Source of the DNA: Flavobacteriales bacterium
Lineage (GTDB): Bacteria; Bacteroidota; Bacteroidia; Flavobacteriales_E; Vicingaceae
Length of the DNA: 64,000 nucleotides
Direction: 5' to 3'
NCBI GenBank assembly: GCA_029262875.1
Contig: JAJCYO010000115.1
Coordinates: 1-64,000 of the forward strand
Positions 5,601-41,472 of this stretch are shown in pieces. Each line of letters opens with the position of its first letter. Position 1 is the first letter of the stretch. The translations under genes and the position numbers were made by a program. The notes beneath the pieces were generated by a model, which did not search any database, was not told where the DNA came from, and saw nothing but the letters and a program-made list of their open reading frames with translations.

Positions 5601-5823
5601 TTACAGGAGTTTCACATGCTGCTAAAGATGCTGCAGCAACTCCAAAACCTAAATATTTAAGAAAATCTCTTCTTGTTGTTGAAGCATCTTCAAGGTTTTC
5701 TTTGTCTTCTAAAAATTCCGTTACAGGAAGGTGTTCTGCAAATTCATTATTGCTTGTTTCAACAAAATCAGATTGATTATCTAATTGTTCTAAACCTTTC
5801 CAGTATTTTTTTGAATTAGCCAT
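2665..5823 (-). CDS. actB: Alternative complex III iron-sulfur subunit ActB (molybdopterin oxidoreductase-like fusion)
   Basis: A 1052-residue periplasmic subunit. The N-terminus carries a Tat-type twin-arginine motif (TTRRDFLKYLG, near residue 50) followed by a possible lipobox ending LAAC. The long middle part resembles the molybdopterin oxidoreductase catalytic domain but, as in known ActB proteins, is not expected to bind molybdenum. The C-terminal part has ferredoxin-type cysteine clusters: CTGCSACVTSC, CQHCNHAGCETVC, CIGTRYCANNC and CSLC...CSIAC, fitting four iron-sulfur clusters (three 4Fe-4S and one 3Fe-4S in the family). It passes electrons from quinol at ActC to the haems of ActA/ActE. 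It lies between actA and actC with short gaps. Confidence 0.94.
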   Translation of the reverse strand: MANSKKYWKGLEQLDNQSDFVETSNNEFAEHLPVTEFLEDKENLEDASTTRRDFLKYLGFGVAAASLAACETPVTKAIPYLNKPEEVTPGEANYYASTYYDGSDYAPILVKTREGRPIFISGNKESALTKGAINARVNASVLSLYDGNRLKAPMMGGKETDWDTIDAAVAKDLKTAKNIKVLTSSIISPSAKSAIEQLVGGNTEEAVEGEEVVDNGSAHITYDSISYSGILEANNESFGKEVIPTYSFEKAKTIVSVGADFMGNWLDALQYVNDYAQTRKPDNKWMSKHFQFEASMSLSGTNADVRIPAKPSEYGAIISSLYGKLGGSGGAKTAYDKQIAAAAKELKASKGESIVVCGSNDKNVQVLVNAINEMLGNYGKTIDVKTTSNSKQGVDSRMAELVADMNAGKVDALLIDGVDPVYTMGDSFAKALKKVKTTVSFATKMNDTATACKYVCPSNHGLESWSDAMPVTGSYSLGQPTISPLFDTRQTEESLLKWAGNDLSYHDYIKKYWEENIFPQSGATFFGDFWNKTLHDGVVEVAAAETEEAETIVFSGDASKANSAVKKIKGGTLELELTQNMAVGAGVGADNPWLQEMPDPITKITWDNYATMNPSEMKEKGYNVYFGQEESMNVIAVTANNQKIQVPVVAQPGQARGTISVALGYGKVVGNMETPTGANAYPLVASTKSGVSYYADATIADVELDEAYHIACTQTQQTVMGRDSVVRETTLDVYKKGSKEDYNPAFTLLSGDTDEHGHQIKKELKEFDLWGDQPVKNIGHRWGMSIDMNTCTGCSACVTSCVAENNIAVIGKDEVRRGRIMHWMRIDRYYSSEHQPLGDVGGTHTATKEALDLNGISTYTAMENAADNPSVVHQPMMCQHCNHAGCETVCPVAATTHSNEGLNMMAYNRCIGTRYCANNCAYKVRRFNWFNYIAYHKFTEVNPSQDDLGRMVLNPDVVVRSRGVMEKCSLCVQRIQEGKLDAKKAGSKVEDGNIQTACSIACPTNAITFGDHNDEGSKLAEARNQDRAYRIIEEVGQDGNIYYQTKVRNLKA

Positions 5824-38938: not shown

Positions 38939-39003
38939 TTGAATGTTAATATCATTTTTGTTTCAATTACCTCTCAGCTTATTAAATAGCTAATTTTATT
39001 TCC

Positions 39004-39873
39004 ATGAGACAACTTATCCCAAAAAATATTATTCATAATGAATGTTGTTTAAAAACGATGTCTGAAATGCCTAATGAGCTAATTGACTTAACCATTACTT
39101 CTCCTCCTTATGATAACTTAAGAAATTATAATAGTCATATAAAAGGAAATAAAACTGAATATAATGGCTATTCATTTCCTTTTGAAAAAATTGCAAAAGA
39201 ATTATATAGAGTAACTAAAAAAGGTGGTGTTGTGGTATGGGTTGTTGCTGATTCAACTGTTAAAGGAAGTGAAACAGGAAGTTCATTTCGACAAGCATTA
39301 TTTTTTAAAGAATGTGGATTCAATCTTTTTGATACAATGATTTACTCCAAGCCACCAAGAGGGGCAGTAGGAAATAACACAACATACTGGCAATCATTTG
39401 AATATATGTTTATCTTAAGTAAAGGAAAACCAAAAACAATTAACCTTATAAAGGATAGAGAGAATAAAGAATCAAGAAAAGGTGATAATGGTACAAAGAG
39501 ACTTCAAAATGGACAATTACTCCAAGTTAGTAGAGGTGGTTATGGCCAATTCGGAAGAAGGACTAATATATGGAAATATAATATCGGGAAAGGGCATTCT
39601 ACTCAAGACGACATAGCATTTAAACATCCTGCAATATTTCCCGAAAAATTAGCTCATGACCATATCTTAACATGGAGTAATAAAGGTGATTTAATATATG
39701 ATCCAATGATAGGTAGTGGAACAGTTGCTAAAGAAAGTATCTTATTGGAGAGAAATTATCTGGGAAGTGAAATCAATAAAGAATATTGTGATATTTCTGA
39801 AATACGAATTGCTAAATTAAAAGAATCTTTATCTAATTATATAGAACTCGAATATGTCGGAGCAGCAAACTAA
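39004..39873 (+). CDS. Site-specific DNA methyltransferase (beta class, N4-cytosine or N6-adenine)
   Basis: A 289-residue DNA methyltransferase with catalytic motif IV TSPPY (32-36) near the N-terminus, motif X HPAIFPEKL (208-216) and the AdoMet-binding DPMIGSGT (233-240) near the C-terminus. This motif order defines the beta class. SPPY is more often found in N4-cytosine enzymes, but N6-adenine cannot be excluded. The middle (about 145-200) holds a basic, Gly/Asn-rich region likely to be the target-recognition segment. The 3' end overlaps the start of the HNH nuclease gene by 20 bases. The region looks more AT-rich than its neighbours, with many ATA and AGA codons, and is probably acquired. 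Confidence 0.9.
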   Translation: MRQLIPKNIIHNECCLKTMSEMPNELIDLTITSPPYDNLRNYNSHIKGNKTEYNGYSFPFEKIAKELYRVTKKGGVVVWVVADSTVKGSETGSSFRQALFFKECGFNLFDTMIYSKPPRGAVGNNTTYWQSFEYMFILSKGKPKTINLIKDRENKESRKGDNGTKRLQNGQLLQVSRGGYGQFGRRTNIWKYNIGKGHSTQDDIAFKHPAIFPEKLAHDHILTWSNKGDLIYDPMIGSGTVAKESILLERNYLGSEINKEYCDISEIRIAKLKESLSNYIELEYVGAAN

Positions 39874-40258
39874 GAGATGTAAGGAATGTGAGATAGAAAA
39901 AAATATTGAAGATTTCGCTCCAAATCAATATGGCAAAAATAATAGAGTTTTAAGAAGACCTGTTTGTAGAGAATGTTACTCAAAAAAGGTTAAGGCTGAT
40001 CCAAAACTTAAGAGATTATTTGAAAAAGATAATCCAAGGCCAAAAATCGGTGAAGAATTTTCTTGTCCAATTTGTGTGCGAACTTTTAAAAGAGAGCATA
40101 ACAATGATGTTGTCTTAGATCATAGCCATATTGATGGTAGTATTAGGGGCTGGCTTTGCAATAGTTGCAATACGAGCTTAGGTAAATTTGGAGATAATAT
40201 TGAAACTTTACAGAATGCAATTGATTGGTTGCTTAAACATAAGAATTCCAATAGTTAA
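39854..40258 (+). CDS. Endonuclease VII-fold HNH nuclease, probable restriction enzyme
   Basis: A 134-residue beta-beta-alpha-metal nuclease resembling phage T4 endonuclease VII. An N-terminal zinc ribbon (Cys9, Cys12, Cys38, Cys41) is followed by a second zinc site (Cys71, Cys74, Cys102, Cys105) that brackets the catalytic DHSH (89-92). Asn106, directly after Cys105, matches the catalytic Asn of endonuclease VII. Restriction enzymes of this fold exist (Hpy99I). The overlap with a methyltransferase makes a restriction role likely; a recombination or junction-resolving nuclease is the alternative. It is adjacent to no phage gene. Recognition sequence is not predictable. Confidence 0.82.
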   Translation: MSEQQTKRCKECEIEKNIEDFAPNQYGKNNRVLRRPVCRECYSKKVKADPKLKRLFEKDNPRPKIGEEFSCPICVRTFKREHNNDVVLDHSHIDGSIRGWLCNSCNTSLGKFGDNIETLQNAIDWLLKHKNSNS

Positions 40259-40275
40259 AACTCTTGAAAGACTAA

Positions 40276-41472
40276 TTAAGTATAATCCAACTTAGTATTC
40301 TTTAACGCCAATATAGCCTCTTCAATTCCCTTGATGGTTAATGGAAACATTTTATTATCCATAATGTTTTTAATCATATCTATCGATTGAACATAATTCC
40401 ATTCTTTTTCTGGAACAGGGTTTAGCCATACCACATCCTTAAAATTCTTCTTCAATCGTTCTAACCAGACTTTTCCTGGTTCTTCATTGTAATGCTCTAC
40501 TGCACCTTGTTTAAACATAATCTCATACGGAGACATCGATGCATCTCCCACAATAATTACTTTATAATCTGAATTAAAGGTGTTGAACATGTCCAATGTA
40601 TTTACACGATCATCCCATCTTCGAATATTTTCTTTCCATAAAAACTCGTACAAACAATTATGGAAATAAAAGAACTCTAAATGTTTAAACTCATACTTAG
40701 CAGCAGAAAATAATTGAGAACACAATTCAATGTGATCATCCATAGACCCTCCAATATCTAACAACAATAAAACCTTAACAGTATTCTTTTTTTGAGGCAC
40801 CATTTCTATCTCCAGCATCCCAGCATTTTTGGATGTTTTAGAAATGGTTTTGTCTAAATCTATTTCTTCAGAAACACCTTCACGAGAAAGAATCCTTAAT
40901 CGTTTCAATGCCATTTTCATGTTACGTGTTTCCAACTCAACATCATCACGTAAATTCTTAAATGTTCTTTTGTCCCAAACTTTTACTGCTCTTCGATGTC
41001 TACTTTCATCCTGTCCTATTCTTATTCCTTCAGGGTTATAACCATATGCCCCAAAAGGTGATGTTCCTCCAGTCCCTATCCACTTACTTCCTCCTTGGTG
41101 GCGTTCTTTCTGCTCTTTCAATAATTCTTTTACTCTCTCAAGTAACTTGTCTAACCCACCCATTGCCTTTATCTTCTCCATATCCTCTGGAGACATAAAT
41201 CGTTCTCCATTTTTTCTTAACCACTCTTCAGGGATATTCATAACATCTTCTGTACTGATGGTTTCAACACCTTTAAAATAAGCACCAAATAGTTGATCAT
41301 ATGCATCAAGGTGTTCTTCGCTTTTCACCAAAATAGATCTCGAAAGAAAATAGAAATCCTCAACTGAATAATCGATTATATCTTTATCTAATGCCTCCAA
41401 CAAGGTTAGGTACTCCCCAATAGAAACAGGGATTTTATTGTTCTTTAATATGAGGAAAAAATCTATAAACAT
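40276..41472 (-). CDS. VWA-domain protein (CoxE-like) paired with MoxR ATPase
   Basis: A 398-residue cytoplasmic protein with a charged N-terminal helical region and a von Willebrand A domain from about residue 225. The MIDAS start is DIGGS in LLLLDIGGSMDDH; VGDASMSPYE supplies a later loop. The Gly-rich central part (GGTSPFGAYGYNPEG) is a family feature. Such proteins work with MoxR AAA+ ATPases in metal insertion or complex assembly. The gene begins 5 bases after moxR-like, so they form an operon. The client is unknown. Confidence 0.85.
   Translation of the reverse strand: MFIDFFLILKNNKIPVSIGEYLTLLEALDKDIIDYSVEDFYFLSRSILVKSEEHLDAYDQLFGAYFKGVETISTEDVMNIPEEWLRKNGERFMSPEDMEKIKAMGGLDKLLERVKELLKEQKERHQGGSKWIGTGGTSPFGAYGYNPEGIRIGQDESRHRRAVKVWDKRTFKNLRDDVELETRNMKMALKRLRILSREGVSEEIDLDKTISKTSKNAGMLEIEMVPQKKNTVKVLLLLDIGGSMDDHIELCSQLFSAAKYEFKHLEFFYFHNCLYEFLWKENIRRWDDRVNTLDMFNTFNSDYKVIIVGDASMSPYEIMFKQGAVEHYNEEPGKVWLERLKKNFKDVVWLNPVPEKEWNYVQSIDMIKNIMDNKMFPLTIKGIEEAILALKNTKLDYT

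Follow-up and report, generated by a model that had tools for sequence, protein, structure and literature searches.

A Compact Hpy99I-Like Nuclease Without an N-Terminal Barrel, Paired with a Beta-Class DNA Methyltransferase: A Probable Mobile Restriction-Modification System in a Flavobacteriales Bacterium

The 64 kb stretch of Flavobacteriales DNA analysed here (the window) carries two overlapping genes, one for a beta-class DNA methyltransferase (MTase) and one for a small nuclease related to the restriction enzyme Hpy99I. We propose, with a probability of about 0.82, that together they form a stand-alone, mobile type II restriction-modification system of the Hpy99I class, in a shortened version whose nuclease lacks the N-terminal barrel. 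The most likely target is CGNCG or CGWCG, a prediction that we hold at about even odds. A restriction-modification role had been put forward in the first-pass annotation of this DNA, and we arrive at the same reading because the nuclease is closest, by sequence and by fold, to a proven restriction enzyme and because the pair is conserved outside any phage context.

The Gene Pair and Its Setting

Both genes are on the + strand. The MTase gene spans positions 39,004 to 39,873 (289 aa) and the nuclease gene positions 39,854 to 40,258 (134 aa), with an overlap of 20 bases at 39,854 to 39,873, exactly as first read from the sequence. The placement between two convergent core genes also stands: the neighbours are a NamZ gene on the + strand and a VWA/CoxE gene on the − strand. 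The description of the pair as AT-rich holds weakly, in that its GC content is 31.1% against a window mean of 33.8%, but 14% of equal-sized segments of the window are just as low. The stretch from 38,941 to 40,283 has no counterpart in G413, a third species of the host genus, although the flanks of the two genomes are 80–82% identical on both sides. In G413, the slot is filled by about 0.6 kb that reads as a different open reading frame.

A Shortened Relative of Hpy99I

Among proteins of known structure, the best relative of the nuclease by sequence is Hpy99I, aligned over its residues 75 to 199 (phmmer E 2e-19), and the nuclease also matches the PADLOC model for a type II restriction enzyme (E 2e-20). 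The AlphaFold model has a pLDDT of 90.5, and this predicted structure matches Hpy99I (PDB 3fc3) with a Foldseek E of 2.7e-9, a TM score of 0.84, and an rmsd of 2.3. T4 endonuclease VII comes next and far behind, with an E of 0.06 and a TM score of 0.32.

The protein contains two zinc repeats, both encoded on the + strand. The first, at 39,869 to 39,988, has the cysteines C9, C12, C38, and C41 and corresponds in the phmmer alignment to the first beta4-alpha2 repeat of Hpy99I; its match to PF18275 (E 6e-4) is below the cut-off of that family. The second repeat, at 40,055 to 40,243, has the cysteines C71, C74, C102, and C105, matches the Pfam family Endonuclease_7 (PF02945, E 1e-17), and includes the predicted catalytic residues D89-H90 (40,118 to 40,123) and N106 (40,169 to 40,171), whose counterparts in Hpy99I are D148, H149, and N165 (PMC3765158). 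Across 27 nuclease homologues, C71, C74, D89, H90, C102, C105, and N106 are invariant and C9, C12, C38, C41, and H92 are nearly so. The endonuclease VII residues named in the first-pass annotation are thus borne out. The same cannot be said of the extra N-terminal zinc ribbon that it described as a possible reader of DNA: the alignment and the near-invariance of its cysteines identify it as the first of the two zinc repeats of Hpy99I, and according to a review, zinc sites of this kind in HNH restriction enzymes have a structural role and no part in recognising the sequence (PMC4081073).

The unusual trait of the nuclease is its missing barrel rather than its N-terminal zinc repeat. The N-terminal barrel of Hpy99I, about 70 residues long, is absent from the window nuclease and from seven intact homologues, and it is present in the long-form relatives. 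Nor could it be encoded further upstream, since the frame of the window gene closes 3 codons ahead of the start codon and those of the seven homologues close 2 to 7 codons ahead. In Hpy99I, residues 1 to 105, which include the barrel, mediate DNA binding and dimerisation (PMC3765158), and the compact nuclease retains only the later part of the region matching these residues. The absence of the barrel counts against our proposal, and the barrel is the one feature of Hpy99I that was looked for and not found; therefore, we call the pair a variant of the Hpy99I class and not a plain member.

We envisage that the MTase would methylate a short palindrome in the host DNA and that the nuclease, presumably acting as a dimer, would cut the same site if unmodified. 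Catalysis would be carried out by the second, zinc-stabilised beta-beta-alpha-Me repeat, with D89, H90, and N106 and one divalent metal ion, and, as there is no barrel, only the two zinc repeats would grip the DNA.

The Methyltransferase and Its Partners

The MTase domain is recognised as Pfam N6_N4_Mtase (PF01555, E 5e-41) and by PADLOC methyltransferase models. Motif IV, TSPPY, lies at 39,097 to 39,111 (residues 32 to 36), motif I, DPMIGSGT, at 39,700 to 39,723 (residues 233 to 240), both on the + strand, and HPAIFPEKL is found at residues 208 to 216; the three motifs behind the original beta-class assignment are therefore all in place. In an MTase tree, separate clades track the partner nuclease, with support of 100/99 for the clade that accompanies the compact nuclease, 97/94 for the clade of long Hpy99I-like partners, and 99/100 for that of HindIII-family partners. 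One member of the long Hpy99I-like clade, at L009, has no nuclease identified.

The HindIII-family partners (PF09518, E about 1e-112) belong to MTases about 45% identical to the window MTase, which lie directly behind these enzymes in three genomes (L007, L008, and L010). One MTase lineage thus pairs with unrelated nuclease folds. Despite the likeness of the MTases, the window pair differs from HindIII-family systems in that its nuclease belongs to PF02945 and has an unrelated fold and in that its MTase falls in a separate clade. A HindIII-like target was rejected, as AAGCTT is not depleted in any carrier (observed/expected 0.92–0.99). Because the other relatives of the window MTase pair with HindIII-family enzymes, the base that it modifies is less than certain; if the target is CGNCG or CGWCG, it would be a cytosine-N4 enzyme like M.Hpy99I.

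The closest known system is that of Helicobacter pylori J99 (R.Hpy99I, PDB 3fc3; M.Hpy99I, jhp0756), which likewise combines two zinc repeats, a catalytic D-H-N set, and an adjacent beta-class MTase. Of the traits of this class, the window pair has the catalytic D-H...N repeat with its Cys4 zinc site, the N-terminal zinc repeat, and the adjoining beta-class MTase. The differences are the missing barrel, the MTase-first operon with overlapping genes, and a predicted target of CGNCG rather than CGWCG. The suggestion that such a pair would be a poorly described class does not survive this comparison, since Hpy99I already has an endonuclease VII fold and a methylase next to it (PMC6083498). That methylase, M.Hpy99I, belongs to the beta class and is an m4C enzyme acting at CGWCG, the sequence cut by Hpy99I (PMC3936762).

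Conservation and Mobility of the Pair

A scan of genome contigs with the nuclease alignment gave 16 loci, and in all eight Bacteroidota loci with a compact nuclease, the same MTase is directly upstream. Whole-genome searches added G416, G491, and G558, in each of which the MTase adjoins the nuclease. With the window included, the MTase is directly beside the compact nuclease in 12 of 12 genomes (here, genome G049 and locus L056 are one, their proteins being identical, and G446 is taken to be L053 from matching coordinates). Flanking genes vary between the compact loci, excepting a flank shared by L054 and L064; their chromosomal neighbours are varied, and no phage or recombination genes are conserved beside the pair. 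The first-pass annotation had asked whether the two genes co-occur in other genomes outside a phage context, and in these 12 genomes they do.

Two species of the host's own genus have the pair at different places, and MTase and nuclease distances are correlated (r 0.56, Mantel p 0.007). The different contexts, the other gene that fills the slot in G413, the correlated distances, and the MTase clades that track the partner nuclease all support a restriction-modification system. Further support comes from G406, a genome of the host's family, in which positions 5815 to 7486 of L086 hold a full-length Hpy99I homologue (E 5e-64 over residues 11 to 199) with an MTase and a small HTH gene. This HTH_3 gene is upstream and overlaps the nuclease gene by 4 bases, and the MTase gene is convergent; by analogy, the arrangement may be compared to the controller genes of type II systems. 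Another long-form nuclease gene, at L003/L065 in G270, is interrupted by an in-frame stop; the flank examined contains no related MTase, and the gene is probably a remnant. CGNCG counts in G270 are normal.

Homing endonucleases such as F-CphI and the DHHRN group have an endonuclease VII-type active site (PMC6083498), as does the window nuclease. The pair differs from them, however, in being intergenic, at sites that differ between genomes, with no intron association or conserved insertion site, and in having a constant MTase partner.

Absence of CGNCG from Carrier Genomes

A palindrome screen was made on 258–628 kb of each of three carrier genomes and one non-carrier, and CGNCG emerged from it as a word all but missing. 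In the host genome (G000), CGNCG occurs once in 625 kb against 180 expected, with one 3.2-kb contig left out. In the carriers G049 and G416, the counts are 1 against 797 and 1 against 98 expected, and in the same-genus non-carrier G421, 0 against 87. The excluded host contig (C25, L114; 3173 bases) contains six of the seven CGNCG sites in the sampled genome and is likely a contaminant or a recent arrival. The whole 64 kb window has no CGNCG site. Ten compact loci, one per genome, have 0 against 135 expected from dinucleotide shuffles, as opposed to 143 against 121 in the long-form loci. Seven short loci from long-form hosts, a sample too small to use, gave CGWCG 24 times against 38.5 expected and no deficit of CGSCG.

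The host has other gaps as well. In the 625 kb sampled, GCTAGC occurs once against 81 expected and CCTAGG once against 71, from trinucleotide counts, and the frequency of CTAG is 0.12 of that expected, very much lower than in the same-genus G421. A second restriction specificity in the host is possible from these deficits, although expectations of higher order are much smaller.

Since CGNCG is missing from the carriers and the site of Hpy99I is CGWCG, CGNCG is the most reasonable prediction for the target of the pair, and we give this word, or its CGWCG subset, about an even chance of being the true one. Two considerations count against this choice. A genome protected by methylation need not lose its sites, and CGNCG, which includes the Hpy99I site, is absent not only from carriers but also from many non-carriers. 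The second point is plain from whole-genome counts over 197 genomes of the class (forward hits to CGNCG followed by GA within 30 bases), which are strongly bimodal: about 40 of the 197 have between 2 and about 100 hits, and most others have hundreds to thousands. Most CGNCG-free genomes have neither a compact nuclease nor any Endonuclease_7 protein, and the CGNCG-free congeners G421 and G420 lack the pair. Therefore, the site gap by itself does not assign a target, and another factor must exist.

Two possibilities follow. CGNCG may be the target of the pair, in which case another factor has the same specificity, or the purge may be due to an unrelated factor, with the pair tolerating or favouring hosts free of the word. 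The second alternative, which gives the pair a different target and makes some other factor responsible for the purge in many Bacteroidota, is a serious one, and we place it slightly under an even chance. Besides the many CGNCG-free genomes that lack the pair, it is favoured by the weakness of the association in a set of 80 genomes: all six genomes in it with a clear Endonuclease_7 protein are free of CGNCG or depleted in it, and the roughly 29 normal genomes include no such carrier, but by our own calculation this set alone gives about p 0.06. Against it, 11 of the 12 compact-nuclease genomes are CGNCG-free (for several of them the state was read from short loci alone, and their relatedness weakens any p-value) and the twelfth, G558, is depleted (718 hits), compared with about 20% of the class. 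The match with the Hpy99I site CGWCG (PMC3936762) also speaks for CGNCG as the target of the pair, and common ancestry accounts only for part of the pattern, as opposite CGNCG states are found inside single genera (g203, g200, and g189). In g203, G491, G542, and G597 are free of the word and G518 and G581 are normal; in g200, G487 and G577 are free and G537 is normal.

Several explanations of the gap were rejected. Masked or altered data are not the reason, as viral and other genomic loci show normal counts and few N; nor is the gap a trait of the whole class, being limited to about 20% of the 197 genomes and patchy within genera; nor can it be due to the pair alone, which most CGNCG-free genomes lack. 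The GIY-YIG gene that adjoins the pair in G049 was also rejected as the cause, since it occurs in 3 of the 80 genomes and CGNCG is at normal levels in two of these. Other Endonuclease_7 proteins in the non-carriers amount to one long-form match (G534) and one marginal match (G512). Our search of the literature found no description of a CGNCG purge.

Other Roles for the Nuclease

The nuclease might instead serve recombination or repair, as an endonuclease VII-like resolvase or a nicking enzyme like Gmet_0936, with an orphan MTase alongside by chance. Its core, with the catalytic domain and zinc site of PF02945, is common to T4 endonuclease VII and to numerous phage proteins of the endonuclease VII type (321 phage records, mostly at about 30–35% identity), which are found in phage context without an MTase partner. 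Moreover, Gmet_0936, a barrel-less relative of Hpy99I without an MTase, looks like a repair enzyme (PMC3765158), and the best PADLOC model for the window MTase is "orphan methyltransferase". However, the pairing is constant in 12 genomes and varied contexts, sequence and fold are nearest to Hpy99I with both zinc repeats present, and recombination genes are not conserved beside the pair. We consider this role improbable, and a resolvase or phage origin of the nuclease was rejected from fold, context, and pairing. A distantly similar MTase is close to a nuclease homologue in only 1 of 40 viral loci. Thus, phage endonucleases share the nuclease core, whereas the MTase–nuclease pair is a bacterial module. 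The first-pass annotation held that a restriction role would be unlikely if homologues were mostly found without an MTase and next to phage or recombination genes; this is so for the phage homologues, but all close bacterial homologues have the MTase.

More improbable still is a decayed system in which the MTase is retained as an orphan while the nuclease is being lost. In its favour, the nuclease is frameshifted in two compact loci, and a 68% identical MTase near a contig start in G566 has no nuclease detected beside it. Against it, the window and seven other loci encode an intact nuclease whose active site is complete, and in one of the two frameshifted loci, L064, the MTase gene is broken as well, possibly through an assembly error.

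Implications

If the pair is, as we propose, a restriction-modification system of the Hpy99I class, a 134-residue enzyme of this type without the barrel would show how small a beta-beta-alpha-Me restriction enzyme with site specificity can be. Of greater importance than the compact nuclease is the CGNCG gap, which is the most surprising observation made here and deserves a separate study. A system that protects its sites by methylation ought to have no need of a genome free of them; the purge therefore suggests an activity against which methylation gives no protection. That chromosomes several megabases long have almost none of a word with four fixed bases, patchily even within genera, indicates selection that is strong and can be reversed, with a nuclease as its probable agent. 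A partial precedent is PacI, a solitary HNH-type (beta-beta-alpha-metal) restriction enzyme whose host is said to be without its site (PMC3488263), but PacI has an 8-bp site and no MTase, whereas the window pair includes an MTase and just four bases of the missing word are fixed.

It is tempting to speculate, though we hold it unlikely as yet, that many Bacteroidota tell self from non-self by a chromosome-wide purge of CGNCG, down to a handful of copies in 3–5 Mb, under a CGNCG-cutting activity independent of methylation. The compact pair would then be one mobile source of this activity, and a cell whose genome has no sites could survive both gaining and losing the pair. The CGNCG gap gives the pair a concrete candidate target, and it raises the question of whether restriction can act through the absence of sites instead of through their methylation.
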